From an uncultured Bacteroidales bacterium (GTDB lineage: Bacteria; Bacteroidota; Bacteroidia; Bacteroidales; F082), in the NCBI GenBank assembly GCA_946405575.1, contig CAMJHP010000006.1, positions 1 to 64,000 on the forward strand: DNA of 64,000 bases. Direction: 5' to 3'. This document shows positions 1 through 18,098 of this stretch, in pieces; positions within the stretch are counted from its first letter, which is position 1, and the number at the start of each line of letters is the position of its first letter. The position numbers were made by a program, and so were the translations under genes. Below the pieces are notes generated by a model. It was not told the origin of the DNA. It did no database searches and saw only the letters and a list, made by a program, of their open reading frames with translations.

Positions 1-90
1 CTGAATGTTCGAATTGATGAGTTTGTGTTAGGTTGTTGAATTGCTGATTATTATCCAGATTAACAATTGAACAATTCAACATCCCAACAA

Positions 91-432
91 TTAAACGATT
101 ATACTGTTGATTTCCACTTCGTTGCCTTGCAACAGCCAAGTGTTTTTGCTGTTACAATAGGGACATATCTTGCCGAACTTGACTGTTTCATATTCTTTTT
201 GGCAGTCACCACAGATCGTAACCGCGGGGATGGTGTTGACTTTCATCTCACAGCCCCGAAGGAGGTCTTCCTTGTCGGCGGCCCAACGCCAGCAGTCGGT
301 GAGCAGATGCGGCACAACGGTCGACACCTCGCCGATGTCCATCACCACGCTAGAGACATGCTCCACGTGGTTTTCTTCGGCAACCTGCTTGACGTCCTTG
401 ACGATATAGAATACAATTCCCAGTTCGTGCAT
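91..432 (-). CDS. hypA: Hydrogenase nickel-incorporation protein HypA
   Basis: The protein has 113 residues, the usual HypA length. It begins MHELGI; in the family the N-terminal Met-His-Glu coordinates Ni(II). Two CxxC pairs (C74/C77 and C90/C93) form the expected structural zinc site. HypA is a cytoplasmic metallochaperone that, with HypB, delivers nickel to [NiFe]-hydrogenase precursors. It is the last gene of a minus-strand group, starting 9 bp after the stop of the flavoprotein at 442-3267, with hypB further upstream. No hydrogenase subunit is visible; one may lie beyond the left edge. A role in another nickel enzyme is possible. Confidence 0.93.
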   Translation of the reverse strand: MHELGIVFYIVKDVKQVAEENHVEHVSSVVMDIGEVSTVVPHLLTDCWRWAADKEDLLRGCEMKVNTIPAVTICGDCQKEYETVKFGKICPYCNSKNTWLLQGNEVEINSIIV

Positions 433-441
433 AGCGCTAGA

Positions 442-3267
442 TTACTTTTTGCCAAAGATGATTTTACCCGTACGTTTGAGCATATACGGCAGGATGGCAC
501 TGAACTTGTCCTCAGAGGTGTACATGTTAGATGCATCTGGATTGTCGCGATAGAGATGGATGGCGTCGAAGGCGCACTTGGTCGTGCAGATGCCACAGCC
601 GATGCAACGGTTCTCGTCGACGACGGAAGCACCGCAGCTCAAGCAACGGGCCGTTTCCTTACGCACCTGCTCTTCGCTGAGCGTCACCATATATTCACTG
701 AAGGGATTCTCCTTGGCAGCAACGCTTTCCACCTGACGCGAGCCATTGTCGTACGACTCCACCATGATATCGTCTTTGTCGAGTTCGACGAAGTCACGGC
801 GGTTGCGTCCGATGGTCATATGACCATGCTGCACATAACGGTGCAGACTCTCGGCGGCCTCCTTACCTGCGGCGATGGCATCGATGGCGAATTTAGGTCC
901 TGTATAACAGTCGCCACCCACGAAGATATCCTCTTCGGCGGTCTGGTAGGTCAATTTGTCGGCCACAGGATACACACCACGGAAGAACTCGACCTTGGTG
1001 TCTTTCAGCAGGTCTTTCAAGATGACCGTCTGACCGATGGCAAAGATGACCAAATCGGCATCCAAGGTGATGAGTTCACTCTCATCATATTGAGGCGCAA
1101 AACGATGCTCATTGTCGTAAACCGATGTGCATTTCTTAAACACGATGCCGCTGACCTTACCTTCACCGAGCACCTCTTTCGGTCCCCAGCCAGGATTGAT
1201 CACCACACCGTCTTCGCGGGCTTCGCGGCGTTCCTCAAGTGAGGCAGGCATGATGTCTTCCGTCTCTAACGAAAGCATCGTCACCGTTTCGGCGCCACTG
1301 CGCTTAGCCACACGGGCCGCGTCGATGGCCACATTGCCACCACCGACGACGACCACCTTGCCCGAGACCTTCATCTTGCCGCAGTTGGCGTCGTGCAGAA
1401 AGTCGATGGCAGTGATGGTGCCGGGAAGTGTTTCACCCGTAATGCTGGGCAGTTTGCCTCCCTGGCAGCCGATAGCCACATAGAAACCCTTGTAGCCTTG
1501 TTCGCGGAGTTGTTCTATGGTGATGTCCTTGCCGACTTCCACCCCTGTCTTGATGTCAACGCCAATCTCGCGCATAATGTCAATTTCAGCCTTAATCACC
1601 TCTTTGTCGAGTTTATAGGAAGGAATGCCATATTGCAACATACCTCCAGGGATGTCGTTCTTTTCAAACACGGTGGGATAATAGCCCATTGTGGCGAGAT
1701 AATAGGCGCAACTCAAACCGGCAGGGCCACCGCCGATGACAGCAATCTTCTCGTCCCAACGCTCGATGACGCTCGAAGCGATGTTGATCTCGGGCACAAA
1801 GCGCGTGTCGGCATTAAGGTCCTGGTCAGCGATGAATTTCTTGACGGCATCAATAGCAATGGGCTGATCGATGGTGCCACGAGTACAAGCGTCCTCGCAG
1901 CGACGGTTGCAAACGCGTCCGCAGACCGCCGGGAAGGGGTTCTCGCGCTTGATGAGTTCCAAGGCCTCCTTATACTTGCCCTCAGCGGCTTTCTTCAGAT
2001 AGCCTTGCACAGCGATGTGGGCAGGGCAGGCTGTCTTACAGGGTGCGGTACCCGTCGGATAGCAGTTGATACGGTTCTTGTCGCGGTAGTCTTCCGTCCA
2101 CTTATGCGGTCCCCATTTCTTGGCATCGGGGAGTTCCTGTTTAGGATAAGTCTGTTCGCCATGTTTGGTGCAGAGTTTCTGTCCCAGTCTGACGGCGCCG
2201 GCAGGGCAGTATTCCACGCAACGCCCACAGGCCACACAATTCTTTGGGTCGACCTTGGCCACATAAGCACTTCTCGACAGGTTCGGGGTGTTGAAGAGCT
2301 GCGAGGTACGCAATGCATTACAAATCTTGACATTGCAATTGCAGATGGCGAAAATCTTACCTTCGCCGTCGACATTGGTCACCTGATGCACAAAACCGTT
2401 GTCCTCGGCCTTTTTCAAAATGGCCATAGCCTCATCGTAGGTAATGAAGTGTCCACGACCTGTCTCGGCAAGGTATTCGGCCATATCACCCACACCGATG
2501 CACCAGTCGCGGTAGTCGTCAGCGCAACCCTCGTCGAGTTTCTTGCGGCCATAGCGGCAAGAGCAGATGCCCACTGCCAAATGGCCTTCATAGCGTTTCA
2601 ACCAATAGGAAATATGCTCGATATCAACACTTTGGTTTTCCATGCTGATGGCTTTCTCCACAGGGATGACGTGCATGCCGATGCCTGCGCCACCCATGGG
2701 GATGCTGGGCGTGATCTTCTCCAAGGGCAAGAACGTCATGCGCTCGAAGAACATGGCCAGCTCGGGATGACGGTCCATCAGTTCTGTGTTCATGTTGGTG
2801 TATTCGGCAGAACCTGGGACGAACATAGGCACCCAGTAGATGCGGTCTTCGCGGTTGTATGTGGTTCCAGCCACAGGGCCTTCCTTGGTGTATTTGTCGC
2901 CATAGTCGTACTCCAGCATCCCGAAGTAGGACAGCTTGTCGAGCAACTCGTCGAAAGAAGCGTCATCGGGAGTGTAGTGTTTCTTGGCGTTCCATTCATG
3001 GAGCAACTTGTAGGTACGGTGTTCGCGCACCTTCAAGGGTTTGCCTGGCAGCATATCCAAGAGCAGGTCGAGCGAAGCCTCGCGGGTGGTGGCATCCATC
3101 TCGTCTTCGAAGATACAAGCCAAGCCCCAATACTCAGGGGCATCGCTGGTCATCTTGAGCTTGCCAGGGATGCGGTCGGTGACCTTTTGGACAAACTTCA
3201 GCAGTTTCGGGTTGGGGTTTTTGTCGCCTTTATGTTTGGGGACAAATTTGGTTGACATTTCGGGCAT
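442..3267 (-). CDS. FAD/NAD(P)-dependent oxidoreductase with multiple 4Fe-4S sites (GltD/NfnB-like)
   Basis: This 941-residue multidomain protein has three parts. The N-terminal ~400 residues carry unusual Cys clusters (C235/C237/C248/C256 and C309/C311/C316) and a ferredoxin motif CxxCxxCxxxC at 344-354. The middle is a glutamate-synthase small-subunit/NfnB-like flavoprotein: Cys-rich 4Fe-4S region at 410-461, FAD dinucleotide motif GGGPAG at 512-517 and a second nucleotide-binding motif GGGNVA at 642-647. The C-terminal ferredoxin domain has C875/C878 and C888/C891/C894/C898. It probably moves electrons between NAD(P)H and ferredoxin in the cytoplasm; the exact substrate is not readable. 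It sits between hypB and hypA in one operon, which suggests a link to hydrogen or nickel-enzyme metabolism. A second Met three codons downstream is an alternative start. Confidence 0.85.
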   Translation of the reverse strand: MPEMSTKFVPKHKGDKNPNPKLLKFVQKVTDRIPGKLKMTSDAPEYWGLACIFEDEMDATTREASLDLLLDMLPGKPLKVREHRTYKLLHEWNAKKHYTPDDASFDELLDKLSYFGMLEYDYGDKYTKEGPVAGTTYNREDRIYWVPMFVPGSAEYTNMNTELMDRHPELAMFFERMTFLPLEKITPSIPMGGAGIGMHVIPVEKAISMENQSVDIEHISYWLKRYEGHLAVGICSCRYGRKKLDEGCADDYRDWCIGVGDMAEYLAETGRGHFITYDEAMAILKKAEDNGFVHQVTNVDGEGKIFAICNCNVKICNALRTSQLFNTPNLSRSAYVAKVDPKNCVACGRCVEYCPAGAVRLGQKLCTKHGEQTYPKQELPDAKKWGPHKWTEDYRDKNRINCYPTGTAPCKTACPAHIAVQGYLKKAAEGKYKEALELIKRENPFPAVCGRVCNRRCEDACTRGTIDQPIAIDAVKKFIADQDLNADTRFVPEINIASSVIERWDEKIAVIGGGPAGLSCAYYLATMGYYPTVFEKNDIPGGMLQYGIPSYKLDKEVIKAEIDIMREIGVDIKTGVEVGKDITIEQLREQGYKGFYVAIGCQGGKLPSITGETLPGTITAIDFLHDANCGKMKVSGKVVVVGGGNVAIDAARVAKRSGAETVTMLSLETEDIMPASLEERREAREDGVVINPGWGPKEVLGEGKVSGIVFKKCTSVYDNEHRFAPQYDESELITLDADLVIFAIGQTVILKDLLKDTKVEFFRGVYPVADKLTYQTAEEDIFVGGDCYTGPKFAIDAIAAGKEAAESLHRYVQHGHMTIGRNRRDFVELDKDDIMVESYDNGSRQVESVAAKENPFSEYMVTLSEEQVRKETARCLSCGASVVDENRCIGCGICTTKCAFDAIHLYRDNPDASNMYTSEDKFSAILPYMLKRTGKIIFGKK

Positions 3268-3317
3268 AATATAATTAGTTTGGAGTTGTCAGTTGGGAGT
3301 TGTTCAGTTATCAGTTA

Positions 3318-3992
3318 TCAGTTGTTTTTCCAGGCATTGACTTCGGCGAGGAGCCATTGGACGAAGGCATCTACGCCTTCCCCTGTCTTGGCGCAGATGG
3401 GGATGACTTGGGCTTTGGGGTTACGCTGGTGGATGTAGGATTTGCAGCGTTGGAGGTCGAAATCGAAATACGGCATGACATCCGTCTTGTTAATCAAGAC
3501 AAGGTCACACACCGTGAACATCAAAGGATATTTCAGCGGCTTGTCGTCGCCTTCAGGGACGGAGAGAATCATTGCATTGCGGACGGCACCCGTGTCGAAC
3601 TCAGCGGGACATACAAGATTGCCCACGTTTTCGAGGACGACCATATCCACATCTTTCAAGGCCACGTTGTCGAGACCCTGACGCGTCATCTCCGCGTCGA
3701 GGTGGCACATGCCTCCTGTATGGAGTTGGATGGACGGGACACCTGTGGCTTCCACGATTTTGACGGCATCCACGTCGCTGTCGATGTCGGCTTCCATCAC
3801 TGCCACACGCACCTTGTCCTTGATGCGATTGAGGGTTTGAATAAGGGTTGTCGTCTTCCCACTTCCAGGGGCCGACATCAGGTTAAGGAGAAATACGCCT
3901 TTCGTTTTCAGCTCCTTACGTAAAGCATCGGCATCTTTGTCGTTATCTTCAAAGACACTTTTCTTGATTTCGATAACTTTAACTTCGTCCAT
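3318..3992 (-). CDS. hypB: Hydrogenase nickel-incorporation GTPase HypB
   Basis: The protein has 224 residues from the Met at 3992; the reading frame stays open further upstream, but that part has no family similarity and crosses the promoter. The P-loop is GSGKTT at 43-48, the metal-site segment is GGMCHLD near 94-99, the HypB motif ENVGNLVCP has its Cys at 128, and the GTP-specificity motif is NKTD at 168-171. HypB hydrolyses GTP to drive nickel insertion with HypA. The His-rich nickel-storage N-terminus found in some HypB proteins is absent. It is the first gene of the hypB-flavoprotein-hypA group; a -7 box lies at 4011-4018. Confidence 0.93.
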   Translation of the reverse strand: MDEVKVIEIKKSVFEDNDKDADALRKELKTKGVFLLNLMSAPGSGKTTTLIQTLNRIKDKVRVAVMEADIDSDVDAVKIVEATGVPSIQLHTGGMCHLDAEMTRQGLDNVALKDVDMVVLENVGNLVCPAEFDTGAVRNAMILSVPEGDDKPLKYPLMFTVCDLVLINKTDVMPYFDFDLQRCKSYIHQRNPKAQVIPICAKTGEGVDAFVQWLLAEVNAWKNN

Positions 3993-4010
3993 AAATATAA
4001 GTATTTTCGG

Positions 4011-4043
4011 CAAAGATAAGGGAAAAACGCATTCAAACCCAAA
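4011..4043 (-). promoter_or_regulatory. Promoter for hypB operon
   Basis: On the minus strand the -7 box TATCTTTG (4011-4018) is preceded, 21 nt upstream, by TTTG (4040-4043), matching the Bacteroidota sigma-ABfr pattern TTTG-N19-21-TAnnTTTG. The hypB start lies 18 nt downstream of the -7 box. Confidence 0.65.
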
Positions 4044-4103
4044 TCCTTGCTGAAAAAAGCAAATTAAGTAACTTAAAAAAACCAAACTACATGTTTTTTG
4101 ACG

Positions 4104-4142
4104 CGGGACACGGGACTTTTTACTATGACCATTGACTATGAC
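4104..4142. repeat. Dispersed repeat, copy 1
   Basis: Two 15-mers, CGGGACACGGGACTT (4104-4118) and ACCATTGACTATGAC (4128-4142), recur in inverted orientation at 47465-47513 with a slightly longer spacer. Both copies lie in non-coding DNA between genes. The nature of the element is unknown. Confidence 0.7.
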
Positions 4143-4281
4143 AATGACCGTTTTCACAGTTATGCTGAAATTTCAGCTCTTGGTTGAAGTTGGTCATGGT
4201 CATATTCACAAATCATAGTCCCATGGTTTCGTGTCCAATATGGAAACTTAATCTGCCCTTCTACTTATGAAGAAGGTAGTT

Positions 4282-4839
4282 TTAGGCGAGATTTGTTTGG
4301 GTAGGGTATCCTATCTCGTTCCAAGCTATGCTGTAATGCTTAGCGAAATACCGTTTGGCATGGCGGTTGGCGCGTATCTCGGTCCAAAACACGTTGTGGT
4401 CGCCTTTTCCAAAGGCACTTACCAAGCTGGGCAGCCCGATAAGAGGCAGATAAAACCAACCAAAAAGCCGACTATCGGCTGTATGGCCAAACTCGTGCAT
4501 ACAGATTTGATTTCCAATGATATAAACCTCTCCTTCACCATGCATCCAATGACCAGCCCACAGGTCGACGAAAGTACCCAACGACACGCCCATACTATAG
4601 CCACATCCCAATTTCGTCGCGAAAGTGATGCCGCCCAAGGTATCGACGCGGTCGACCTGACCAGCGAGTGCCCGTGTCACTGAATAAAGCCATCCCACAA
4701 AGGTCTGTGGCAGTTCCCAAGTGAACCTTGAAAGAAGTTGCCATACGCGGCCCAATGGCGAACGTTTATTGTCGGTCAGGAAGAGGCCTCGGGTGAGTTG
4801 GGCAGCGAGTTGGAAACGGTTATAATGATTAGATAACAT
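4282..4839 (-). CDS. Putative zinc-metalloprotease-like membrane protein (HEFGH motif)
   Basis: The protein has 185 residues, using the Met at 4839, 5 nt after a TATCTTTG promoter box. Near residue 114 it has an HEFGH motif (HExxH type, typical of zinc peptidases) followed by TADSR, and then a hydrophobic segment (GWFYLPLIGLPSL) that may sit in or on the membrane. A downstream acidic or histidine third ligand could be the Glu in the WTEIRANRHA segment. I recognise the HEFGH-plus-hydrophobic pattern from uncharacterised Bacteroidota proteins but know no function. It is a single-gene unit between the hyp operon and the defence island. Confidence 0.6.
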   Translation of the reverse strand: MLSNHYNRFQLAAQLTRGLFLTDNKRSPLGRVWQLLSRFTWELPQTFVGWLYSVTRALAGQVDRVDTLGGITFATKLGCGYSMGVSLGTFVDLWAGHWMHGEGEVYIIGNQICMHEFGHTADSRLFGWFYLPLIGLPSLVSAFGKGDHNVFWTEIRANRHAKRYFAKHYSIAWNEIGYPTQTNLA

Positions 4840-4844
4840 GGGAG

Positions 4845-4852
4845 CAAAGATA
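4845..4852 (-). promoter_or_regulatory. -7 box for the HEFGH gene
   Basis: TATCTTTG on the minus strand ends only 5 nt before the ATG at 4839, so the transcript should be nearly leaderless. A TTGG stretch lies about 20 nt further upstream. Confidence 0.55.
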
Positions 4853-4860
4853 CACACTTT

Positions 4861-5004
4861 CTTGGGAGACCAAAAACTTATAATGATTATTTTCCTATCT
4901 ACATCACCACCCAAATCGCCGCCATTGACAAAGAAATAGACCGCATGGTGTACGAACTTTACGACCTAACCCCCGATGAGATCAAAGTGGTAGAAGGAGA
5001 ATAA
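4861..5004 (+). pseudogene. 3' remnant of a restriction/N6-adenine methyltransferase gene
   Basis: In frame from about 4861 to the TAA at 5002-5004 the sequence reads as a C-terminus containing AAIDKEIDRMVYELYDLTP and ending VVEGE. This closely resembles the C-terminal tail (IDxxVYxLYGLTxEEIxxVEG) shared by many Type IIG and related restriction-methyltransferase proteins. No catalytic domain precedes it; the frame is closed by a stop at 4834 and the segment overlaps the promoter of the neighbouring minus-strand gene. I read it as a fossil left by an earlier restriction system at the edge of the defence island. Confidence 0.5.
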
Positions 5005-5099
5005 AGGTCTTCGGCTTGGGCCTCCGAAACCTGGTGGTTGTATTTGCCAAAGCCATAGCCAACAATGCCACACAGCAGGTCTTCCATGAATTGCGACAT
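4959..5099 (-). CDS. Possible 46-residue ORF, function unknown
   Basis: A short minus-strand frame starts MSQFMEDLLCGIVGYGFGKY and ends just inside the restriction-gene remnant on the other strand. Its N-terminal part looks protein-like, but the last ~15 residues are antisense to the remnant, so the true C-terminus may have been lost. It may be a truncated gene or chance. It lies 14 bp downstream of the small membrane-protein gene at 5113-5295. Confidence 0.25.
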   Translation of the reverse strand: MSQFMEDLLCGIVGYGFGKYNHQVSEAQAEDLYSPSTTLISSGVRS

Positions 5100-5112
5100 A
5101 CTTCACTCCTTT

Positions 5113-5295
5113 TTAATCGTTAACGATATAGCGGACTGCGATAATGAAGATGATTACGCATACCACCGTGATGATACCGTAGACATCCGCCCCAGTGAAA
5201 AGCTCAACAAGCAATTCTATAAGAAAACTGAAAATGCCGGCAATAGCACCGAGAATGACTGCGGCAAGACAAAGGATGATTACAAGTTGCTTCAT
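5113..5295 (-). CDS. Small hydrophobic membrane protein
   Basis: The protein has 60 residues from the Met at 5295 (MKQLVIILCL). It consists of two hydrophobic segments, about residues 3-26 and 37-57, separated by a short stretch with Glu and Asp, ending RYIVND. It probably forms a two-span inner-membrane peptide. No family is recognised. A box TATCTTCG (one mismatch to TAnnTTTG) lies about 25 nt upstream on the minus strand. The frame is open 16 codons further upstream, but the Met at 5295 gives a normal membrane start. Confidence 0.55.
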   Translation of the reverse strand: MKQLVIILCLAAVILGAIAGIFSFLIELLVELFTGADVYGIITVVCVIIFIIAVRYIVND

Positions 5296-5458
5296 GATGT
5301 ATATGATTGATCTTTGCGAAGATACGCATTTCCGAACAATCAATCAACGAACCGTGGAATATTTTACCGTACATCCGAATTATAGTGCATCGTTGTCATT
5401 CTCAGTCCTAAAATAATGAGCTTTTTGAAAATAATACTTAAGTCTCGGAAATCTTTTC

Positions 5459-5466
5459 TAATTTTG
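5459..5466 (+). promoter_or_regulatory. -7 box for the 92-residue gene
   Basis: TAATTTTG matches TAnnTTTG and lies 29 nt before the ATG at 5496. No clear -33 element was seen. Confidence 0.45.
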
Positions 5467-5495
5467 TACCCAATTAAATAGAGTTATATGATATA

Positions 5496-5774
5496 ATGAG
5501 TATGAACGAAGAATCTCACATCACCACAATAGCCGATGTTAAGGCTTTCTTCCATCATTTGGTGAATGAACGCAAGGTCAACTTCCATCCGGATGACGAC
5601 TTTGCTGATTACATCAGCGTTAAGGAAGGAACCCCCACCTTCACTAAGGATGAAGTCGCGGTGTTTAACCGTTTGATGGAAGAGTCGTTTGTTGTGTGCG
5701 AGGCATCCGGTGTCGATATTTACGAACTCGGCTTAGAAGAATTGGAAACAGTATTGAAGCCTGCAGAGGCTTGA
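5496..5774 (+). CDS. Hypothetical protein, 92 residues
   Basis: The small acidic protein begins MSMNEESHITTIADVKAFFH. The predicted character is mostly helical (the segment around residues 10-22 and the C-terminal DIYELGLEELETVL), without signal peptide or membrane segment, so it is likely cytoplasmic. The spacing of charged residues and normal codon use support it as a real gene. No domain is recognised. It stands directly upstream of the structured leader of the restriction operon, but it has its own promoter box and there is no sign that it belongs to that system. A Met two codons in is an alternative start. Confidence 0.6.
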   Translation: MSMNEESHITTIADVKAFFHHLVNERKVNFHPDDDFADYISVKEGTPTFTKDEVAVFNRLMEESFVVCEASGVDIYELGLEELETVLKPAEA

Positions 5775-5784
5775 AACAACAAAA

Positions 5785-5811
5785 ATGATTAAAACTGGAA
5801 AAATGACATAG
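5785..5811 (+). other. Possible 8-codon leader peptide
   Basis: An ATG at 5785 opens a frame encoding MIKTGKMT, then TAG, just before the first stem of the structured region. It could be a leader peptide of an attenuator, but no good ribosome-binding sequence precedes it; chance is quite possible. Confidence 0.15.
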
Positions 5812-5827
5812 TAACCAACGAGTCTTG

Positions 5828-6010
5828 AACATCCTTGACAAGGCTGAAATACCAGAATTAGGACCTCGGGGACACGTCAGTCAGTCAAGACAAAGGATGT
5901 TCGCGCTCTATCATAAGGGCGTGGACTGATATTGTATTGACGTGGGCTGTCCTAAGCCTTGGTATTAGCAATCTCATCCACGCCCTCTTCTAAAAAGGAG
6001 GGCTTTTTTA
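5828..6010 (+). ncRNA. Structured leader RNA / attenuator candidate upstream of the restriction operon
   Basis: The interval holds a dense set of complementary segments: AACATCCTTG (5828-5837) with CAAAGGATGTT (5891-5901); AATACCA (5848-5854) with TGGTATT (5960-5966); TTAGGAC (5858-5864) with GTCCTAA (5949-5955); and AGGGCGTGGA (5916-5925) with TCCACGCCCT (5977-5986), a perfect 10-bp stem. The pairs interleave, so they form a pseudoknot or alternative folds. The 3' arm of the last stem overlaps the 5' arm of the terminator at 5982-6010, so the two cannot form together. This is the layout of an attenuator or riboswitch. It could equally be a free small RNA with its own terminator. I recognise no known RNA family. 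Confidence 0.6.
5982..6010 (+). terminator. Intrinsic terminator in the leader
   Basis: GCCCTC (5982-5987) pairs with GAGGGC (5998-6003) and is followed by TTTTTT. It lies 35 nt before the first methyltransferase start, so read-through would be needed for expression from any promoter upstream of it. Confidence 0.75.
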
Positions 6011-6044
6011 TTGCATATAGAATTGTTCGCAGGATAATAAGCAA

Positions 6045-7202
6045 ATGAATATAGACCAGAATACACAAGCAAACATTGATAACGAGGGAATCTCTTGGGT
6101 AGATAAACAATTTAGTCACCCGGAAAGGACCATCCGCCTTGCCACCTCTTTTAGTGGCATTGGCGCTATTGAATATGCATTCAAGCGGTTGGGGCTAAAA
6201 ACAGAGATTGTATTTGCTGGTGATATTGATAAGAATTGTAAAGCAACATATTTCGCGAATTACGAGATAAACGAAGAGCAATGGCACAATGACATCCATT
6301 CATTTAATGCAAAACCTTATAAAGGCAAAGTGGATTTGTTTGTTGGTGGAGCACCATGCCAGGCTTTTTCAATTGTAGGTGACCAGCTGGGATTTGAAGA
6401 TACGAGAGGAACTTTGTTCCGCGAGTTTGCACGAGTTGTAAAAGAGTGTAAGCCAAAAGTGTTTATTTTTGAGAATGTACAGGGGTTGTTTAAACACGAT
6501 GGCGGTCGTACTTGGGATGTAGTAAGAAAGACTTTTGAGGATTATTGCGGTTATGACATCCATTATCAGCTTTTAAATGCTAGAGATTATGGAGTGCCGC
6601 AAACAAGAGAAAGGCTGTATTGCATAGGTTTTCGCAAGAAAACAAAGTTCAAATATCCTGCACCGATTCAATTAAGGTACAAAATGTATGACTTTTTGGA
6701 GGATTACAGCGAGTGCGTGTTTTTTTCTAAATCCGATGGTGTAAAGTATTTAGCCAATGATGAAGAACATCGAAAGAAACTTGCTTCAGGAACCGATGTA
6801 GAGCGTTTTAACGACTTCATTTTTGAAGTAAAAGAGGTGGATGACAAGTTTTATCTTTCTGAAAAGGTGGCAAAATACGTGTTGGCAGGAGGAACTAAGA
6901 CTTTCAAAACATCAACAAAAACAGATCTTGATATAGCCAGACCTTTGTTACAATCCATGCATAAGATGCATAGAGCCGGTGTTGATAATTATGTAACGTA
7001 TAGAAGAGACAAAGGCATTAATGGCATCAGAAAACTAACACCTCGCGAATGCCATCGTCTTATGGGATTTCGAGATGATTTCAGAATTGTTGTAGGCAAC
7101 ACACCAGCGTATATGCAAGCAGGGAACAGTATTGTTGTTGATGTGCTAATGGCCATTTTAAAACAACTTGATATAACAAGATACGGGATAGATGAAAAAT
7201 AA
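6045..7202 (+). CDS. C5-cytosine DNA methyltransferase M1 (LlaJI-type system)
   Basis: The 385-residue protein has the ordered C5-methyltransferase motifs: I FSGIG (36-40, S-adenosylmethionine binding), IV GGAPCQAFS with catalytic Cys105, VI ENV (143-145), VIII QTRERLY (186-192), IX LTPRECHRLMGF and X GNS near the C-terminus. The variable stretch between VIII and IX (about 200-335) is the target-recognition region. It methylates host DNA to protect it from the cognate nuclease. It overlaps the second methyltransferase gene by 11 bp and is clearly its paralogue outside the recognition region. Two methyltransferases suit an asymmetric site, one per strand, as in LlaJI (GACGC). The actual site here is unknown. 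Confidence 0.93.
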   Translation: MNIDQNTQANIDNEGISWVDKQFSHPERTIRLATSFSGIGAIEYAFKRLGLKTEIVFAGDIDKNCKATYFANYEINEEQWHNDIHSFNAKPYKGKVDLFVGGAPCQAFSIVGDQLGFEDTRGTLFREFARVVKECKPKVFIFENVQGLFKHDGGRTWDVVRKTFEDYCGYDIHYQLLNARDYGVPQTRERLYCIGFRKKTKFKYPAPIQLRYKMYDFLEDYSECVFFSKSDGVKYLANDEEHRKKLASGTDVERFNDFIFEVKEVDDKFYLSEKVAKYVLAGGTKTFKTSTKTDLDIARPLLQSMHKMHRAGVDNYVTYRRDKGINGIRKLTPRECHRLMGFRDDFRIVVGNTPAYMQAGNSIVVDVLMAILKQLDITRYGIDEK

Positions 7203-8376
7203 ATACCAGGACATACAAAATACCAAAGCAAATATAGACGCTACTGATAGAGACTGGTTTACGAAGCCTTTTTCTCATCCTGAGCGGACTATTAGGCTTG
7301 GTACGTCTTTTAGTGGTATTGGTGCCATTGAGCATTCATTTCATAGGTTAGGCCTGAATTGTAAGATTCAATTTGCAGGAGACATTGATGAAAACTGCAA
7401 AAAAGCATACTTTGCCAACTATCCAATTACCGAAGAACAATGGCATTCAGACGTTCATGATTTTGATGCAACAAAGTTTAAGGGAGAAGTTGATTTATTT
7501 GTTGGAGGTGCCCCATGTCAAGCGTTTTCACTTAGAGGCAAACATGGCGGTTTTGAAGACACAAGAGGAACTCTTTTCAGAGAGTTTGCACGTATTGTGA
7601 ATGAATGTCAACCCAAAGTATTTATCTTTGAAAATGTAAAAGGCATGTTGAGCCATGATAATGGAAGGACTTGGAAAGTCATCAAGGACACCTTTGAAAA
7701 CTATTGTGGCTATGATGTGTATTTTCAGGTTTTGAATGGTAAAGATTATGGCATTCCCCAAAGCAGAGAACGATTGTACTGCATAGGCTTTAGGGATGAA
7801 ACAGAGTTTAAATATCCCAGCCCAATTCCTTTGGAGAAGACAGTCTATGATTTTCTCCAAAAATCATTCGATACGAAATATATGCTTAAACAAAAGGGCG
7901 TTAATTTCGTTACACGAAGCATCAATCATGCAAAGAGTTACACACAAGTCAATGGTGATGTGATGCTTTGTCAGAAAAGAAATCAGCAGTTTAACTGGCA
8001 TGGGGATTTTGTATATCATCCAAAGTTGAAGGCTGATATTTCTACACCTGAAACGGACGACCATCTTTATAGGGTTGCTGATTATGAAGAAGATTATTTC
8101 TTGTCTCATAAGCCGGAATACTATGCGTTGACTTCTTTAACGAGTACAGAGGCACAAATGAAGAAGGTCTCAAAAAAAGATATTGACATCACCTATGGTA
8201 GATTCAGAAAGTTTACGCCAAGAGAATGTCTTAGACTGATGGGCTTTGACGATTCGTTTAAAATTGTTGTTTCAGATACTGAGGCGTATAAACAAGCAGG
8301 AAATAGTATCATAGTAGATGTCTTAATGGCATTGCTTAAACAAATAGATATTACGAAATATGGAGAATGTTTATGA
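7192..8376 (+). CDS. C5-cytosine DNA methyltransferase M2 (LlaJI-type system)
   Basis: The 394-residue protein is a second complete C5-methyltransferase: motif I FSGIG (40-44), motif IV GGAPCQAFS with catalytic Cys109, ENV in motif VI, QSRERLY in motif VIII, FTPRECLRLMGF and GNS at the C-terminus. The first ~200 residues align almost residue for residue with M1, while the region before motif IX differs, which fits a different recognised strand. It overlaps M1 by 11 bp and the McrB-like gene by 17 bp, so translation of the operon is probably coupled. All key residues are present. Confidence 0.93.
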   Translation: MKNKYQDIQNTKANIDATDRDWFTKPFSHPERTIRLGTSFSGIGAIEHSFHRLGLNCKIQFAGDIDENCKKAYFANYPITEEQWHSDVHDFDATKFKGEVDLFVGGAPCQAFSLRGKHGGFEDTRGTLFREFARIVNECQPKVFIFENVKGMLSHDNGRTWKVIKDTFENYCGYDVYFQVLNGKDYGIPQSRERLYCIGFRDETEFKYPSPIPLEKTVYDFLQKSFDTKYMLKQKGVNFVTRSINHAKSYTQVNGDVMLCQKRNQQFNWHGDFVYHPKLKADISTPETDDHLYRVADYEEDYFLSHKPEYYALTSLTSTEAQMKKVSKKDIDITYGRFRKFTPRECLRLMGFDDSFKIVVSDTEAYKQAGNSIIVDVLMALLKQIDITKYGECL

Positions 8377-10393
8377 CTCAAAAATGAAAGAGCTGGGCTA
8401 TCATCAGCTTGTGACGGACATCTTCCTTAATTGGGAAAATGTCAAAGATGAAATCTTGCTAAAAGAGCGCAAGAGTGGAACAGGCAGCGGCACTGTACAT
8501 GTCTTTCTAGGAGCAGCTGATGATGTTCTACAACAAGAATTTGCCTCTTATTATGCCTCTGTTGAAGCAGGTGCAGATCCTTCTGTAGGGGCTATTCCTG
8601 TGAGACACTATTTCCTTGCGAATAATGTCCTGAGTATGATAGGATATTTGTGTGATTACTATAAGTCTATGAATTGGGACTATACGCAAGAGGTAGAGTC
8701 CATTTTGAGCGAATTAAAAAGAACGGCTGATAAAAGCGGCTTATTGACCACAACATCATTATTTAAGTTGTCTACAGGTTCCAATAGACTTCGTCCTTAC
8801 TTTAAGCAATTTGATGAAAGCGGGGTCTTTTATCGCATTATTCGTCATCTTTTACAGCCACGATCGTCCTACAAAATTTCGCTTTATAAAAACGAACAGG
8901 GAGAGTATGCGGCTTTCTGGTTAATCGGTTTTGATTATCTATCAAGTTTTGAAGCCGATTCTTCAAAAGATTATCTTGAACAAGAATCAGAAAATATGGC
9001 GGAAAAACTACAACTTATTTTTTATGGAGCGCCAGGAACTGGTAAATCACATACTATAAAACGTGAGGTTGACGATAAAGGGATGCCTTGTGAGCGTACT
9101 ACGTTCCATCCAGATAGTGACTATTCTACTTTTGTTGGAGCATATAAGCCCACCACTGTTGATGAGACTGTGATGACAGTGATAGGAACGAAAGCTGTAC
9201 CGGTTGAAAACCCCGATGGTCACCCGAGAATAGAGAGGAAGATTGTTTATGAATTTGTGCCACAAGCGTTTTTGAAGGCCTATACTGGAGCATGGAAAGA
9301 CCAAAGCAAAGATTTCTACTTGATTATAGAGGAAATCAACCGAGGCAATTGCGCTCAAATCTTTGGCGACTTATTCCAGCTGCTTGACAGAAATGATGAG
9401 ACAGGGCTTTCCAAATACCCCATTTCTCCTGACCAAGACATTAAGAAGTTTTTGTTGACTGACAAGAAATACGGCTTTGCATCATTGAAAGATGAGCAAA
9501 AAGTAGCGATACCAAAGGAAGTGCTGGATGGAGAGCGTTTGGTTTTGCCTAAAAATCTGCACATTTGGGCAACCATGAACACCAGTGACCAATCACTCTT
9601 CCCTATTGACTCAGCCTTCAAACGCCGTTGGGATTGGCAATATATTCCCATTTCAAACACGAACAAGGGATGGAAGATTAAAGTTAAGGGCAAAGAATAC
9701 GGCTGGTGGGACTTCTTGGATAAGATGAACGCGCAGATTAATAGCACCACCAATTCGGAAGACAAGAAAATGGGTTATTTCTTCTGCAAGGCTAAAGATG
9801 GCATCATCGATGCCAAGACCTTTGTAAGCAAGGTGGTGTTCTACATTTGGAATGATGTGTTCAAGGACTTCGCCAATGAAGCTGGCGGCATATTCAAGGA
9901 TGATGATGGCACATTGCTTTCGTTTAATAAATTTTATCGCGTTGTCAATGGTAAAACAGAGGTAGTGGAAAGCAAGGTGGAGCAGCTTCTAAAGAATCTT
10001 GGCGTGGAAGCCGAAGGCGAAACCATAGATATCGAAGTACTTGAAGAACAAGCACCTGCCAATTCAAACAAGAACTATTTAAAAGAGATTGTTTTTCCTG
10101 ACGGGACCACTTTCAGCACCGATAACATGAGCCATTTTGAAGCCTATATTGAGGCCATCAGAAAAATTGGTGTAGATAGAGTGGCTTCCGTGGCCGAAAG
10201 ATTGAAATATCGGAGATTGAACCGTCCGCTTATTTCAGCTGAAAAGTACGATGAGATCGAGAATAGCACAGAGTTCACCTATTATCAAGAGGGAGACTAT
10301 TATTTTGTGAAAGGAGCCAAGACCTATACATTGGTCAGGATATTGGAGGACTTGAACGAAATGCTGAACGTAGGGATGACCATTAACTGCTGA
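8360..10393 (+). CDS. McrB-like AAA+ NTPase, restriction subunit R1 (LlaJI-type)
   Basis: The 677-residue protein has an N-terminal ~210-residue region that is probably DNA-recognising, then an AAA+ motor of the McrB clade: Walker A GAPGTGKS (223-230), Walker B LIIEEINRG (321-329) and the McrB-type signature MNTSDQSLFPIDSAFKRRW (406-424) with its arginine finger region. In McrBC and LlaJI this subunit binds the site and translocates DNA using GTP or ATP, and the partner subunit cuts. The start overlaps M2 by 17 bp; a Met eight codons later is an alternative. The gene for the nuclease subunit follows after 5 bp. Confidence 0.9.
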   Translation: MENVYDSKMKELGYHQLVTDIFLNWENVKDEILLKERKSGTGSGTVHVFLGAADDVLQQEFASYYASVEAGADPSVGAIPVRHYFLANNVLSMIGYLCDYYKSMNWDYTQEVESILSELKRTADKSGLLTTTSLFKLSTGSNRLRPYFKQFDESGVFYRIIRHLLQPRSSYKISLYKNEQGEYAAFWLIGFDYLSSFEADSSKDYLEQESENMAEKLQLIFYGAPGTGKSHTIKREVDDKGMPCERTTFHPDSDYSTFVGAYKPTTVDETVMTVIGTKAVPVENPDGHPRIERKIVYEFVPQAFLKAYTGAWKDQSKDFYLIIEEINRGNCAQIFGDLFQLLDRNDETGLSKYPISPDQDIKKFLLTDKKYGFASLKDEQKVAIPKEVLDGERLVLPKNLHIWATMNTSDQSLFPIDSAFKRRWDWQYIPISNTNKGWKIKVKGKEYGWWDFLDKMNAQINSTTNSEDKKMGYFFCKAKDGIIDAKTFVSKVVFYIWNDVFKDFANEAGGIFKDDDGTLLSFNKFYRVVNGKTEVVESKVEQLLKNLGVEAEGETIDIEVLEEQAPANSNKNYLKEIVFPDGTTFSTDNMSHFEAYIEAIRKIGVDRVASVAERLKYRRLNRPLISAEKYDEIENSTEFTYYQEGDYYFVKGAKTYTLVRILEDLNEMLNVGMTINC

Positions 10394-10398
10394 TTTTC

Positions 10399-12591
10399 AT
10401 GCGCATCCTCATTGAAGAATACCAGTACGATGTAGCCAAGGTGAAAGACATTCTGCACGGCATTGATGCTTTGGAGAATGTGGAGGGTAAAGTCTCCATT
10501 CACTATGTAGGGTATTACTATAACACCCTGCTGAAGGACTGTGTATTCATTCTTCCCAAAGTGCTTCTCAAAGACGTGGATGGGCAGGAACTGGCTTTTG
10601 GCAAATACAAGCCCGAAGACATCGTTTCGCCTGACCAAAACAAGGAGATGGAAGCACGGGAAAAGGACTTCCTCTATAAGTTCGCCGTGTGGATATATCG
10701 TGCTATCGTAGTGTATAAAAACGACAAACGGAATGACACTGGCATCGTGTATCACACGAAGATAGCGCAGATTGGCAAAGGTATGCGTAGGCTGAGCAAT
10801 ACCTACCTTGACATTCTGCTGGAGCTGTTGCAGTTCAACAAAGACAACCAGAGTTTCTTCTTTTTCATCGTAAAGAATCTCCATTCGGGGTACAACAAAA
10901 TCAACTGGACGCGCACCATCAGTCGAGAGACAGCCATCGTGCAAAGCGGACAGCCAGTTTACCTGAAGCCTGTGAACAAGAAACGGCAAATCAACTTTGA
11001 CGAAGAACTGCTGGTGATCTTCTTCTCCATCTTGAATTACATCGGCGACACCTACGGTTTTGCGAAGGACATCAAATGTCAGTTTGACCTCATCAAAGGG
11101 TCACAGTTCCAAACCTATCTCAATGGCTATGGATTGACGAGGCTTAGGCAAATCAAATACAAGTATTTTTCGGACAAAGCACTGGAGCTTTGGAGTTTAT
11201 GTTATGCCTTCTTCGACGAATCGCGGCAAGTGTTTGTCAGCACAGAGAAGAAAGAGTATTTACTAGTGAAGAGCTTCTACATTGTCTTTGAGGCCATCAT
11301 TGATGAACTGATAGGCGACAATCCATTGCCAGATGACATGGAGAAGAAGCAGGAGGACGGCAAGATTGTCGACCACCTTTATACAGCGAAGAGTCTTATC
11401 GAGAGTGAAGCGGCACAAACATATTACATTGGAGACTCGAAGTATTACAAGATGGGGCATCCAATTGGGGATGAATCCATCTACAAACAGTACACCTATG
11501 CCCGAAACGTCATCCAATGGAATCTTGACATCTTCAACCGAGGCGAACAGCCGAAGTCCGGTGTCAGGTTGCGCGATGACGTGACAGAGGGCTACAACAT
11601 CATACCCAACTTCTTTGTGTCGGCCAAGATGGACGAAACCTTCAGCTATACCAACGACGGCATAGAGAAAACCGACAGAAAGAAGAATAGGCACCGCAAA
11701 GAGCAATTCAAGAATCGTCTCTTTGATCGTGACACGCTTTTGCTGTTCCATTATGACGTGAACTTCCTCTTCGTGTTGTCGCTGTATGCTAGGGACAATG
11801 CTTCGCAGAAAGCAGCATGGAAACAAGAGGTACGAAAGAAGTTCCGCACAGAGATACAGACATGGTTACAAGATGAGAAGGAGGGCTTTGCATTCTATGC
11901 GATGAAAGCTCGCCCAGGTGTGGATGCGCGTCAATACTTCAAGATGCATTTTCAAGACATTCTTGGAAAGACCTACACTCCTTATGACTCAGAAGAGGTC
12001 TATTCATTGGCCTTAGACAGAAAAGACCCTGAGGGCGACAACGAGAGCTTGCTCGCAGAACTGCGCCAGTATTTCATTGTGGTGCCGTGCGGGTTAGGCG
12101 CAGATCCTGAACCCATCATTGAAGCTGCTAGAAAATCGGATGCCGGCACAGTGCCGGCACCCGAGAAAGACGGTGTGCTAATGGTTATGATGGAATACTA
12201 CGATAACAAGAGCAAAGAATTCATTTCTTCAGGGAAACTTGCAGTTGGCATCAAGTACACGCCTGATTCGATGGAGATAGTACAGAACCTATCTTCCATC
12301 GGATATGTGCTCTTCCATCATCGCAGTAATGTTGGCCAACATCTGTTTGCAGTGAAAGGAGCCTGCAAGGTTGTGCAATCAAAGGCTGTGGAAGCAGACC
12401 GATACAAAAACGTGGAAACGACAGAAATGTTCGTTGTCGTGGACATAGATACCACAGTTGAACTGGATGCTTCAGTGATGGATGCGAGTAAGAAGGAATG
12501 CACCAAGCAGACCAGGTATGATGCGCAATTTGCGCGGATGGAAGATTTGAGAAACACAAATCAAAATTCATTTTTCTTCTTTTTTGAATAA
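10399..12591 (+). CDS. LlaJI-family restriction endonuclease subunit R2
   Basis: The 730-residue protein follows the McrB-like gene directly, the position of the nuclease subunit in LlaJI/McrBC operons. The segment FEAIIDELIGD (298-307) and then YYIGDSKYYKMG (342-353) fit a PD-(D/E)xK nuclease core, with Glu299, Asp346 and Lys348 as likely metal and catalytic residues; this spacing and the D-x-K-YY signature are those of the LlaJI endonuclease family. The N-terminal ~250 residues resemble the helical McrC-like region that docks on the NTPase. The residues after about 480 are less conserved in character and may hold extra DNA-contact elements. It completes the set M1-M2-R1-R2. Confidence 0.82.
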   Translation: MRILIEEYQYDVAKVKDILHGIDALENVEGKVSIHYVGYYYNTLLKDCVFILPKVLLKDVDGQELAFGKYKPEDIVSPDQNKEMEAREKDFLYKFAVWIYRAIVVYKNDKRNDTGIVYHTKIAQIGKGMRRLSNTYLDILLELLQFNKDNQSFFFFIVKNLHSGYNKINWTRTISRETAIVQSGQPVYLKPVNKKRQINFDEELLVIFFSILNYIGDTYGFAKDIKCQFDLIKGSQFQTYLNGYGLTRLRQIKYKYFSDKALELWSLCYAFFDESRQVFVSTEKKEYLLVKSFYIVFEAIIDELIGDNPLPDDMEKKQEDGKIVDHLYTAKSLIESEAAQTYYIGDSKYYKMGHPIGDESIYKQYTYARNVIQWNLDIFNRGEQPKSGVRLRDDVTEGYNIIPNFFVSAKMDETFSYTNDGIEKTDRKKNRHRKEQFKNRLFDRDTLLLFHYDVNFLFVLSLYARDNASQKAAWKQEVRKKFRTEIQTWLQDEKEGFAFYAMKARPGVDARQYFKMHFQDILGKTYTPYDSEEVYSLALDRKDPEGDNESLLAELRQYFIVVPCGLGADPEPIIEAARKSDAGTVPAPEKDGVLMVMMEYYDNKSKEFISSGKLAVGIKYTPDSMEIVQNLSSIGYVLFHHRSNVGQHLFAVKGACKVVQSKAVEADRYKNVETTEMFVVVDIDTTVELDASVMDASKKECTKQTRYDAQFARMEDLRNTNQNSFFFFFE

Positions 12592-12640
12592 CAGTCTAAT
12601 ACTTTGGCTAACAATAGGTATGACGCCACCTATTTTGAAT

Positions 12641-13072
12641 ATGACAAAACACAAAATATACGTAGCAAGCAGTTGGCGCAATGAGCATTATCCCAATGTG
12701 GTCGCCAAGCTGAAAGAGGCGGGGCACGAAGTGTACGACTTCCGAAATCCATCATCAGGCGACCCTAAATTCAAGTGGAGCAACGTAAGCGAAGACTATA
12801 TGGAGTGGTCGCCACAGCAATATCGCGTTATGTTGAGTCACCCCTATGCCGAGCGGCAGTTCCACAACGATATTGAGGCCATGAAAAGTTGCGACATTTG
12901 TGTGTTGGTGCTGCCCTGCGGAAGAAGTGCACACACGGAAGCAGGATGGTTTGCGGGGAAGAGTAGAACCACCATCGCTTTTATTCCCGAAAAACAAGAA
13001 CCTAAGTTGATGTATAAACTGTTTTCTTGTGTGTGTTGTAGCATGGATGAACTGTTGGATGCATTGAAGTAA
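12641..13072 (+). CDS. Nucleoside 2-deoxyribosyltransferase-like protein
   Basis: The protein has 143 residues from the ATG at 12641 (MTKHKIYVASSWRN). The first strand with IYVASSW, the segment CDICVLVLPCGRSAHTEAGW with a conserved Glu, and the small single-domain size match the nucleoside 2-deoxyribosyltransferase-like fold, a relative of TIR domains often encoded by phages and defence islands. It may cleave or exchange the base of a nucleoside or nucleotide; the substrate is unknown. The gene starts 49 bp after the restriction nuclease and converges on the Hachiman genes. It may be a passenger, a fifth gene of the restriction operon or an independent effector. An ATG at 12620 is an alternative start; the TTG at 12584 is unlikely. 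Confidence 0.7.
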   Translation: MTKHKIYVASSWRNEHYPNVVAKLKEAGHEVYDFRNPSSGDPKFKWSNVSEDYMEWSPQQYRVMLSHPYAERQFHNDIEAMKSCDICVLVLPCGRSAHTEAGWFAGKSRTTIAFIPEKQEPKLMYKLFSCVCCSMDELLDALK

Positions 13073-13181
13073 TATGTTTTAATTCAATGCCCTTTTTGTC
13101 CCCATTGGACACATTCTCTGTTATTCCTTATAACAAAATGATGTATTATCAAACCAACATCCTCGGAGCAAGATGTGTTTT

Positions 13182-16100: not shown

Positions 16101-16304
16101 TTCCGCATAGTCCAAGTCGTCCAACGGAGAGACTAAAGCCGTATTGGATAATAGGAATGCAACTCTACAAACCGAAGGCCAATCTTGTTCATCATAAGTA
16201 GACGCAGGTTCAATCTGAGACTCCCAAGAGAGCCTCTTGCTTTGCCGAAGTATATCTTGTACTTTGGCATTACCAAGCATATTATCCAACATCTGTGACC
16301 TCAT
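13182..16304 (-). CDS. hamB: HamB-like superfamily 2 helicase (Hachiman-type defence)
   Basis: The protein has 1040 residues. After an N-terminal ~290-residue helical region comes an SF2 Ski2/Hel308-like motor: motif I TSAGKT (319-324), motif II DEAH (423-426), motif III-like LLSPFLPDAG (456-464), motif IV/V region HHAG...TTTIAEGVNFP and motif VI GRAGRT (677-682). A long C-terminal region follows. The gene overlaps the upstream HamA-like gene by ATGA, a sign of translational coupling. In Hachiman, HamB senses or unwinds damaged or foreign DNA and controls the HamA nuclease, leading to DNA degradation and abortive infection. AbpB of the AbpAB pair is a close alternative name. Confidence 0.85.
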   Translation of the reverse strand: MRSQMLDNMLGNAKVQDILRQSKRLSWESQIEPASTYDEQDWPSVCRVAFLLSNTALVSPLDDLDYAEESYNLLSCYPIDDEDAKNVFEGIVGYDMKDKSILYYFYLASLALKLDKTISARLIMHNYDDTVEYVEDEWGRRTLYMIIKSLLLLIRKQKGMRDICEALRLIETLRSEQETFEDSYISTVPLQQQRQKALDLVAVYHVSKAVYDTADYLVNGHSLQQRRITSSIRQHIDIALQLISKESRLNDFFRIIWNDLQLLVKNSIWTQTGFQNDIKKLCKIKAESGILELLPSQQDALSKNMLNVAANAIVLQMPTSAGKTMMAEFNILVTRSLRPDAKIVYVVPSRALMNQVYFDLRDDLRNLGLSIERTSSAIEVDPTESCFLQSEQIDILVCTPEKLDLLIRRNHPSVEDVSLFIIDEAHTIENGQRGARLELLITMLRRERPDAKFMLLSPFLPDAGETITDWLGGGNAIQINWRPSEKIVFGLNLERKKAKYIVLPTALTTKVTSEQHFESAQTLPLVSKGAKEKILEYATKKYGEQGRTQLILCAGRKSANNQAEKIAEWTAAPTTISDDVTLVKKYMDEEIGCPTIYSRLLSKGISVHHAGLSDETKILIEYLIRKGEIRYVCATTTIAEGVNFPVSSVYFDTYYRGRDNKNRPIPISSNDFWNIAGRAGRTMVDDYGKIILPFNSETNISAARQLIAHSAEQLTSVLAQLFVNREEVLATLAEEHSVIKLANDYPESFGPLFQYFVHLLNVADSDYAADVEDLFKDSLAYTLLDNDDKSSFIDLCRRIYLTIQSEYSNQRGALKFADKTGFSVPSVLNIMRAKASIPEVSDLDSWRAEVMFDRRNTDSLAEKIRVVAALKETHMGTESKAAPFNPKVASEILIGWVNGEKLDTISVMHPYFAQENDVDLRVSKFVRYMSDIRFKASWGLSALEGIVKGNADDVRDSYIPSYVFYGVQDPKALAMRMLGVPRSLSASLSQVIQEDVNSYSFSRLRHILADLPSSDWDSLRPRGSSLSGAEWKRVVEILMK

Positions 16305-17128: not shown

Positions 17129-17140
17129 CCCTTTTTTGTG

Positions 17141-17148
17141 CAAAATTA
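17141..17148 (-). promoter_or_regulatory. -7 box for the hamA-hamB operon
   Basis: TAATTTTG on the minus strand lies 12 nt upstream of the ATG at 17128. It fixes the start choice of hamA. No good -33 match was found. Confidence 0.55.
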
Positions 17149-17781: not shown

Positions 17782-18003
17782 TTAATACTCATCCTCGTTG
17801 AAAAAAAAGTCATCCTTCGAAGGATAATCGGGCCAAAGGTCTTCGATGCGTTCGTATATCTCGCCTTCGTCTTCGATTTCCTGAAGGTTCTCTATGATTT
17901 CTTCTTGTGCGCCTGTACGCAAGGCCCAATCCAACAATTCATCACGGGTGGCTGGCCATGGAGCGTCTTCCAATTTTGAGGCTAATTCTAGTGTCCAATA
18001 CAT
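17782..18003 (-). CDS. DUF2795 domain protein, 73 residues
   Basis: This small acidic cytoplasmic protein starts MYWTLELASKLEDAPWPATR and continues with DELLDWALRTGA and EIIENLQEIEDEGE, the DUF2795 pattern: a compact helical module resembling a short nucleic-acid-binding fold. It ends in an acidic tail (DDFFFNEDEY). The whole protein is the domain, as usual in Bacteroidota. Its function is unknown. It is a single-gene unit with a very good promoter at 18042-18071 and a terminator hairpin after the stop. It marks the return to core genes right of the defence island. Confidence 0.85.
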   Translation of the reverse strand: MYWTLELASKLEDAPWPATRDELLDWALRTGAQEEIIENLQEIEDEGEIYERIEDLWPDYPSKDDFFFNEDEY

Positions 18004-18041
18004 TGTATTTTCGTTTTTTGTTTTACTCTTTTTTGAGGGCG

Positions 18042-18071
18042 CAAAAGTACAAGTATTTTTGGAACTAGCAA
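18042..18071 (-). promoter_or_regulatory. Promoter for the DUF2795 gene
   Basis: On the minus strand TTG (18069-18071) is followed after 19 nt by TACTTTTG (18042-18049), a close match to the Bacteroidota -33/-7 consensus. Confidence 0.7.
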
Positions 18072-18098
18072 GGGCTTTTTTGTATAAATAACAAATTT

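Follow-up and report, generated by a model that had tools for sequence, protein, structure and literature searches.

The window, by which we mean the whole stretch of 64,000 nucleotides analyzed here from an uncultured Bacteroidales bacterium, contains on its plus strand a restriction-modification operon of four genes: the C5 DNA methyltransferases M1 (positions 6045–7202, the first gene) and M2 (7192–8376), both assigned by Pfam (PF00145), a McrB-like AAA protein (8360–10393; AAA_5, with a partial match to the McrB model far below its cut-off) and a LlaJI-like restriction endonuclease (10399–12591; PF09563, E 7.4e-6). With PF00145 twice, AAA_5 and PF09563 in one operon, the content is that of a LlaJI system; the operon resembles such systems in its C5 methylases, McrB-like AAA protein and LlaJI nuclease, but differs from them by the leader RNA described below. 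Control of the lactococcal LlaJI system reportedly involves promoter methylation. Upstream of the operon, also on the plus strand, an ORF of 92 aa with no family assigned (5496–5774) lies between a promoter element, TAATTTTG (5459–5466, plus strand), and the RNA, and its relatives hold the equivalent place in G028, G074 and G075. No HTH family was found in this ORF or in the four operon genes, so that none of them qualified as a C protein.

An ORF resembling nucleoside 2-deoxyribosyltransferases (12584–13072; Pfam score below the cut-off) overlaps the end of the nuclease gene, and the restriction operon of another locus, L071, has a similar ORF nearby. On the minus strand, a DEAD-box helicase (1040 aa) and a HamA-domain protein (304 aa), both recognized by Pfam at 13182–17215, form a Hachiman-like defense pair that is convergent with the restriction operon. 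Comparison of window positions 1–18700 with loci L433–L435 outlined a defense hotspot bounded by PduO-like/DUF2795-like genes on one side and a glutamate-synthase-like gene on the other (names given by reading).

Ahead of M1 lies a structured RNA on the plus strand, at 5817–6010 according to the extent of its covariance-model match (117 bits, E 1.2e-21). An earlier note on this DNA had described paired segments, a terminator and an 8-codon frame (ATG to TAG, 5785–5811) in this region, and all of them were found in place. The RNA folds with a z value of –3.74, and 0 of 200 dinucleotide shuffles folded equally well. The long hairpin common to the copies of this RNA consists of P2a (AATACCA 5848–5854/TGGTATT 5960–5966), an internal loop of GAA (5855–5857) opposite GCCT (5956–5959), P2b (TTAGGAC 5858–5864/GTCCTAA 5949–5955), a loop that carries GG on the 3΄ side, and P3 (CACGTCA 5873–5879/TGACGTG 5938–5944). 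Its apical part is formed by the P4 hairpin (CGCTC 5904–5908/GGGCG 5917–5921; CACGC/GCGTG across the family). Both A of GAA, both C of GCCT and the GG were invariant wherever letters were present among 73 non-redundant copies, a constancy that is partly an effect of search models that demand likeness. The apical loop is also joined to both tails, through two additional helices. P1 (AACATCC 5828–5834/GGATGTT 5895–5901) uses a strand of the 5΄ tail and forms a pseudoknot with the main hairpin, whereas P5 uses the 3΄ tail; as the earlier note had it, P5 is a perfect 10-bp stem, its strands AGGGCGTGGA (5916–5925) and TCCACGCCCT (5977–5986) being exact reverse complements. Because P5 takes the 3΄ strand of P4, P4 and P5 exclude each other. 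A terminator-like hairpin, T, with a U-run (5982–6009; stem 5982–5989/5996–6003, then six T) completes the RNA, and the 3΄ strand of P5 overlaps the 5΄ arm of T by five bases (5982–5986).

A blastn search of 149 related genomes returned five homologs of the window RNA, all from the same genus, with 69–77% identity over ~190 nt (an additional 24-nt match in G125 was left out of the set), and the stems of these homologs retained pairing through compensatory changes. The covariance model R1 was built from these six sequences, with P2a, P2b, P3 and the terminator as paired elements, and matched 22 of 99 genus genomes and 11 of 295 order genomes. Its weaker matches were a mix of chance hairpins and a second, more diverged group of identical plan; L038, L040, L041 and L043 were dropped as AT-rich chance hairpins, and L018, L020, L024, L032 and L008 (a near-duplicate of L009) were left out of alignment A4. 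A C5-methylase-like ORF lies behind L018. The model R2 comprised 27 sequences and had P4 added to its paired elements. With it, the RNA was found in 94 of the 99 genus genomes, 140 of the 393 from the order and 32 of the 296 from the phylum; these counts are lower bounds, because a limited number of candidates was scored per genome. In the window's own genome, 14 matches were found at E up to 3e-4; a fifteenth followed at E 0.002, and the sixteenth (E 2.7) was a partial match in antisense orientation. Two copies of this genome (L240 on C48 and L241 on C13) are recent paralogs: they share the 60 nt in front of the RNA without a difference, and the outer part of the RNA is nearly identical, whereas its middle is 71% identical with complementarity apparently kept, and the preceding genes are alike.

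As a control, R2 was applied to 28 genomes containing an exact match to an 18-base pattern. No match was found in 17 of the 18 non-Bacteroidota genomes of this set. By contrast, all four Chryseobacterium genomes carried 2–5 copies each, and all six Bacteroidales/Bacteroidia assemblies carried 6 to 17 copies, at least some of these six being genomes searched before, with coinciding places. A Lentisphaeraceae assembly (G793, of L221) gave two matches outside Bacteroidota (E 4.8e-8 and 3.6e-5), which represent either contamination or real transfer. The leader RNA of the window is one copy of a large Bacteroidota family of structured RNA leaders, which is apparently undescribed. No Rfam 15 family matched the window, or any of 20 relatives, at the gathering score; at lax thresholds, the window stretch, 10 loci and 19 phylum loci gave isolated, chance-level matches to unrelated families. 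The Rfam families Bacteroidales-1, Bacteroides-1, Bacteroid-trp and Flavo-1, described by Weinberg et al. in 2010 (PMC2864571), are alike as structured RNAs of the same phylum but, like the rest of Rfam, gave no match at the gathering score. A literature search over listings and text passages found no description of the leader family. Among candidate structured RNAs in human microbiomes, HTH_XRE is given as the commonest downstream domain (15 candidates; PMC8040213), and this domain is common behind the leader family as well; some of those candidates may be fragments of the family. The passages of that source compared here describe no restriction link, pseudoknots or family.

We also searched collections of mobile elements. 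The window leader had no blastn match among 72,556 plasmid records, nor did the leader of L359 in the plasmid records or that of L031 among 50,697 phage records. In viral contigs, two RNA motifs matched nothing, and the one stretch matched by a third motif (L381) was without an R2 match up to an E value of 0.01. A permissive pattern returned at least 120 stretches, and among the 80 listed and scanned, one (L071) matched R2; another pattern returned 25 stretches, of which L071 and L418, both contigs in IMG/VR, carry the RNA. Read by their names, these two contigs appear to belong to isolate genomes and not to free phages. After these plasmid, phage and viral-contig searches, we rejected a phage, plasmid or virus origin of the leader.

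P1 and P5 are not among the paired elements of R1 or R2, and we examined them with an alignment-free comparison of the pairing energy between a copy's own segments (self) with that between segments of different copies (cross). The comparison used 73 non-redundant copies of 99. In a scan of 100 of the loci, the own-genome copies L239–L242 were below the threshold. Self pairing was stronger than cross pairing for P1 (–13.6 versus –9.1 kcal/mol, t = –17) and for P5 (–20.7 versus –13.3 kcal/mol, t = –19.4), as well as for P3b, which extends P3 and overlaps both P1 and P5 (–7.9 versus –6.1 kcal/mol, t = –6.3), whereas three control segment pairs gave t = 0.3, 1.5 and 1.2. Within the window's subfamily, all 70 P1 cells were paired, as were 82 of the 90 P5 cells; G208, which pairs with a shift, accounted for five of the eight P5 misses, and P5 pairs were counted by motif since the aligner shifts that stretch in the columns of alignment A8. 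The plus strand paired better than its complement in 58 of 73 copies for P1 and in 69 of 73 for P5, and the models' own helices contained 118 G-U against 12 A-C cells, a count that the model itself favors. Together with the G-U excess, this strand asymmetry shows that selection has acted on an RNA transcribed the same way as the operon, so that the leader acts as RNA. A weaker signal (t = –3.9 in 55 copies) hints at pairing, around the start codon, of bases that follow the U-run.

The placement of the copies was consistent with a leader. Of 70 non-redundant copies, 60 had the element TANNTTTG, a Bacteroidetes promoter element (PMC6414381), in the 150 nt upstream, mostly 50–80 nt before the match, whereas 7.2 ± 2.6 were expected from a Markov control of the 70 copies and 16 were found for the reverse complement; inside the leader plus gap, it was present in 8 of 70. 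The window element TAATTTTG matches TANNTTTG and is the sole such element at 5301–6100. It lies ahead of the 92-aa ORF, 358 nt before the RNA, and TANNTTTG is absent within 150 nt upstream in 6 of the 10 loci of the window's subfamily; both points speak against the attenuator reading proposed below. The gene side was analyzed in 130 copies (115 listed genus matches, 14 from the window's own genome, and the window). The nearest downstream ORF was co-directional in 121 of 128 cases, compared with 92 of 125 for the nearest upstream ORF. A downstream plus-strand ORF was found for 127 of the 130 copies, at a median gap of 43 nt from the match; this search covered the plus strand only, so that direction is tested solely by the count of 121 in 128. 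Some genes start 0–5 nt behind the U-run, namely HsdM of G075 and the C5 methylase of G075 (GTG start), and their mRNA must therefore come through the leader. The genes that have a family member between promoter and start codon encode restriction systems, small regulators and surface proteins, and the order is promoter element, leader, gene. At two loci (L243:4055-4310 and L245:4032-4287, minus strand), a second RNA copy, whose apical part is much enlarged, precedes a relative of the 92-aa gene, giving the order RNA, small gene, RNA, restriction operon.

What the leader precedes varies widely. A Pfam and PADLOC scan of the first 420 residues of 127 first downstream genes identified small HTH proteins (50, by pattern), T9SS sorting domains (9), BspA repeats (6), ResIII (10), the PADLOC HKD+Snf2 model (8), C5 methylases (5) and one N6 methylase (HsdM); the gene behind L354 has an N6/N4 methylase domain. 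Whole operons include HsdM, an HsdS-like ORF and HsdR in G075 (L383), and a Mod/Res-like pair in G436 (L385). The 25 families listed for the 124 nearest upstream genes, down to a last Pfam family with one member, included no methylase, ResIII or SNF2 family; defense-like families did occur there, namely the PADLOC candidate families PDC-S01 and PDC-S27 (in 5 and 4, respectively) and DUF1016/YhcG (in 3). Of 15 copies in the window's own genome, five lie ahead of genes for restriction or helicase proteins; those on C6 and C19 were assigned by Pfam, that on C82 by a methylase match just below the Pfam cut-off, and those on C63 and C56 by reading and likeness to relatives. The earlier note had seen the RNA ahead of a restriction operon, but the RNA family is not specific to restriction: secreted proteins, small HTH genes and other genes also stand behind it, and this one genome has ~14 copies. 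In four genomes of the same class (L389, L396, L399 and L401), the RNA lies 225–273 nt before genes read as SusC/RagA-like receptors.

The subfamily of the window, group A (P1 = ACATCC/GGATGT), comprises 10 loci: the window, G028, G075, G074, G082, G064, G208, G435, L071 and L418. A C5 methylase-nuclease operon follows the leader in 8 of the 10, with five kinds of nuclease. LlaJI operons are present in the window, G028, G075 and G074; the window has two methylases, G028 and G075 have one each, and G074 has a different methylase, while the nuclease genes of G028 and G075 are like the window's in DNA sequence. The other operons contain EcoRII with Vsr (G082), NgoPII and HaeIII nucleases behind a 146-aa ORF (L071), Mrr with two methylases (L418) and HNH with one (G435). 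Of the remaining two loci, G208 has DUF2971, DUF1016, Fic and a Schlafen-type helicase. In G064 (L261:2108-3485, minus strand), two ORFs of 208 and 249 aa matched nothing in Pfam, PADLOC or NCBIfam, and they are a candidate unknown restriction or defense pair. These loci supply covarying relatives upstream of other restriction operons, for which the earlier note had suggested a search; conservation and covariation, whose absence in relatives it had named as evidence against an attenuator, are both present in homologs that keep their pairing by compensatory change.

Comparison within group A showed that the leader can stay constant while the operon behind it changes. Between G075 and G074, both of LlaJI type, the RNA is 98–100% identical except for the last 25 nt and the preceding 300 nt are 93–97% identical, but identity drops to chance level within 40 nt behind the RNA, where a single alike DNA stretch of 64 nt remains, and homology resumes past the operons. 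L071 and L418 repeat this pattern independently, with a near-identical leader and a different operon: identity is 95.5% over 870 nt, ending 4 nt before the match end, no blastn match was found behind the RNA, and the nucleases are unrelated. The window cassette occupies a chromosomal hotspot shared with G074, G075 and G028, but is inverted.

The RNA family probably controls how far transcription proceeds into the gene. The segment would be the ~190-nt 5΄ leader of the operon's own transcript, begun upstream at the Bacteroidota-type promoter; the long hairpin P2a-P2b-P3 would form with its loop pinned by the 5΄ tail through P1 and by the 3΄ tail through P5, and an intrinsic-terminator-like signal would end the leader just ahead of the first gene, which would be read only if this 3΄ end fails to terminate. 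P5 should exclude P4 and, in the window's subfamily, the terminator hairpin too, and the balance of these helices should set read-through and with it expression of the methylase-nuclease operon. Either T or P5 plus a U-run precedes the gene in the copies read, this end being terminator-like by pattern only. P5 directly precedes the U-run in most copies read, and in those read outside group A it abuts the U-run itself. In group A, T has a perfect stem of at least 7 bp in 5 of the 10 loci, is imperfect (by reading) in 4 and is absent in L071. Forming P5 would accordingly be predicted from these arrangements to stop transcription outside group A and to spare it in the window.

We folded the window leader at seven lengths without pseudoknots. 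The predicted structure was the P1 hairpin for an end at 5905, the long P2-P3-P4 hairpin at 5970, P1 plus P5 at 5987, and P2-P3-P4 plus the terminator at 6010. These alternating folds agree with the description in the earlier note. Across the 73 copies, the P1|P5 arrangement was 11.2 ± 5.2 kcal/mol less favorable than the long hairpin (3.6 in the window), and the two were within 5 kcal/mol in just 11 copies; therefore, two balanced states are no family trait, and P1 and P5 may coexist with P2 and P3 as a single compact fold. The competition of folds described in the earlier note is thus retained insofar as P5 excludes the terminator in the window's subfamily, but its exclusive on and off states are not, the long hairpin being favored family-wide. 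Its attenuator layout fared similarly: the structured leader, the sequence from promoter element to restriction operon and the interleaved conserved helices are all there, whereas regulated switching goes beyond what they prove. Its suggestion that the 8-codon frame might be a leader peptide was given up, because this frame is absent from the other nine group-A loci, which have unrelated short frames there; with no conserved short ORF across the 10 loci, a leader-peptide attenuator was rejected.

We consider it rather probable that the leader works as an attenuator in cis. Its signal would most likely be a cell-wide factor, because one leader family serves many unrelated accessory genes in one genome. 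Action in cis is the part that we hold firmly. Regulated termination at the leader is likely, and we infer from the layout that termination occurs, that it is regulated and that it has a signal. In 60 of 70 copies, and in the window with its motif at 5459, the leader lies between promoter and first codon, as in attenuators and riboswitch expression platforms, to which it is also alike in its predicted mutually exclusive helices and its terminator-like signal before the first codon. The family differs from these in that a pair of conserved pseudoknot helices takes the place of a simple exchange of hairpins, in having no leader peptide and no indicated ligand or binding protein, and in serving restriction systems, HTH genes and surface proteins.

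The main rival reading is that of a terminated, trans-acting RNA: mainly a stable small RNA of ~190 nt, for which the downstream gene would be a leaky read-through passenger or a partner. The strong terminator-like end, the compact conserved fold with unpaired invariant bases, the predicted full-length window fold of a long hairpin plus terminator and the many copies per genome would suit it. However, the RNA lies nearly always directly upstream of a co-directional gene at a short distance, promoter elements occur upstream and rarely between RNA and gene, and the pairing strands vary freely under compensation, so that no long constant seed is apparent; we regard this reading as unlikely, although a free ~190-nt RNA may arise as a second product beside the operon mRNA. 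Somewhat less likely still is a constitutive leader that senses nothing, its fold protecting the mRNA end or fixing a low read-through. The absence of a metabolic theme among the downstream genes and the energetic dominance of the long hairpin agree with such a leader, but conserved helices that exclude P4 and T, together with the invariant AA, CC and GG, exceed what a fixed terminator needs, with the reservation that the invariant bases are partly a product of the search models.

That the element acts as DNA, as a recombination site or cassette boundary for the exchange of restriction operons, would fit the G074/G075 and L071/L418 comparisons, in which identity spans the RNA and ends within 40 nt of its end, and the inverted window cassette in the shared hotspot. 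However, ordinary homologous recombination through a shared leader explains these breakpoints, the RNA has one orientation relative to promoter element and gene, the family also precedes many single non-restriction genes, and the strand asymmetry of P1 and P5 and the G-U over A-C excess show selection on RNA; we thus give the DNA reading very little weight. The least probable reading, to which we assign hardly any credence, is an RNA partner of the type III toxin-antitoxin kind that binds the product of the downstream gene. Its attraction is a resemblance to ToxIN, which has the same layout of RNA, terminator and gene and a pseudoknotted RNA. ToxI is located upstream of ToxN (PMC8040213). Against this, the proteins behind the leader are mutually unrelated, no ToxN was present among the 25 listed of 49 families in 127 proteins, the first gene of the window encodes a C5 methylase and no ToxN-type toxin, and no tandem repeats were noticed by eye in the copies read.

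Our preferred reading of a cis-acting attenuator bears on how restriction is controlled. Restriction-modification operons are normally controlled by C proteins and methylation feedback, and newly acquired restriction systems can kill the host prior to DNA methylation. Antisense RNAs control EcoRI and Eco29kI (PMC3874152), and the main text of that review of restriction-modification control does not contain 'riboswitch' and contains 'attenuat' once. The leader would be like the C proteins, methylation and antisense RNAs in keeping restriction operons in check, but differs as a sense-strand leader RNA.

We tentatively propose, as a possibility that we rate slightly below even, that the phylum-wide double-pseudoknot leaders form a regulon, of ~14 units in this genome, in which one widespread subfamily is dedicated to restriction-modification operons exchanged behind a constant leader. 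If this is the case, a newly arrived restriction system would come under a shared read-through control, and unrelated anti-phage systems (types I, II and III and HKD-SNF2 helicases) would have a common RNA switch. A many-copy, phylum-wide structured RNA outside Rfam would also account for part of the 5΄ regions that lack annotation in front of HTH and surface-protein genes, and the family is open to testing in cultured Chryseobacterium. A constant leader with swapped operons would be a general answer to the control of restriction systems.
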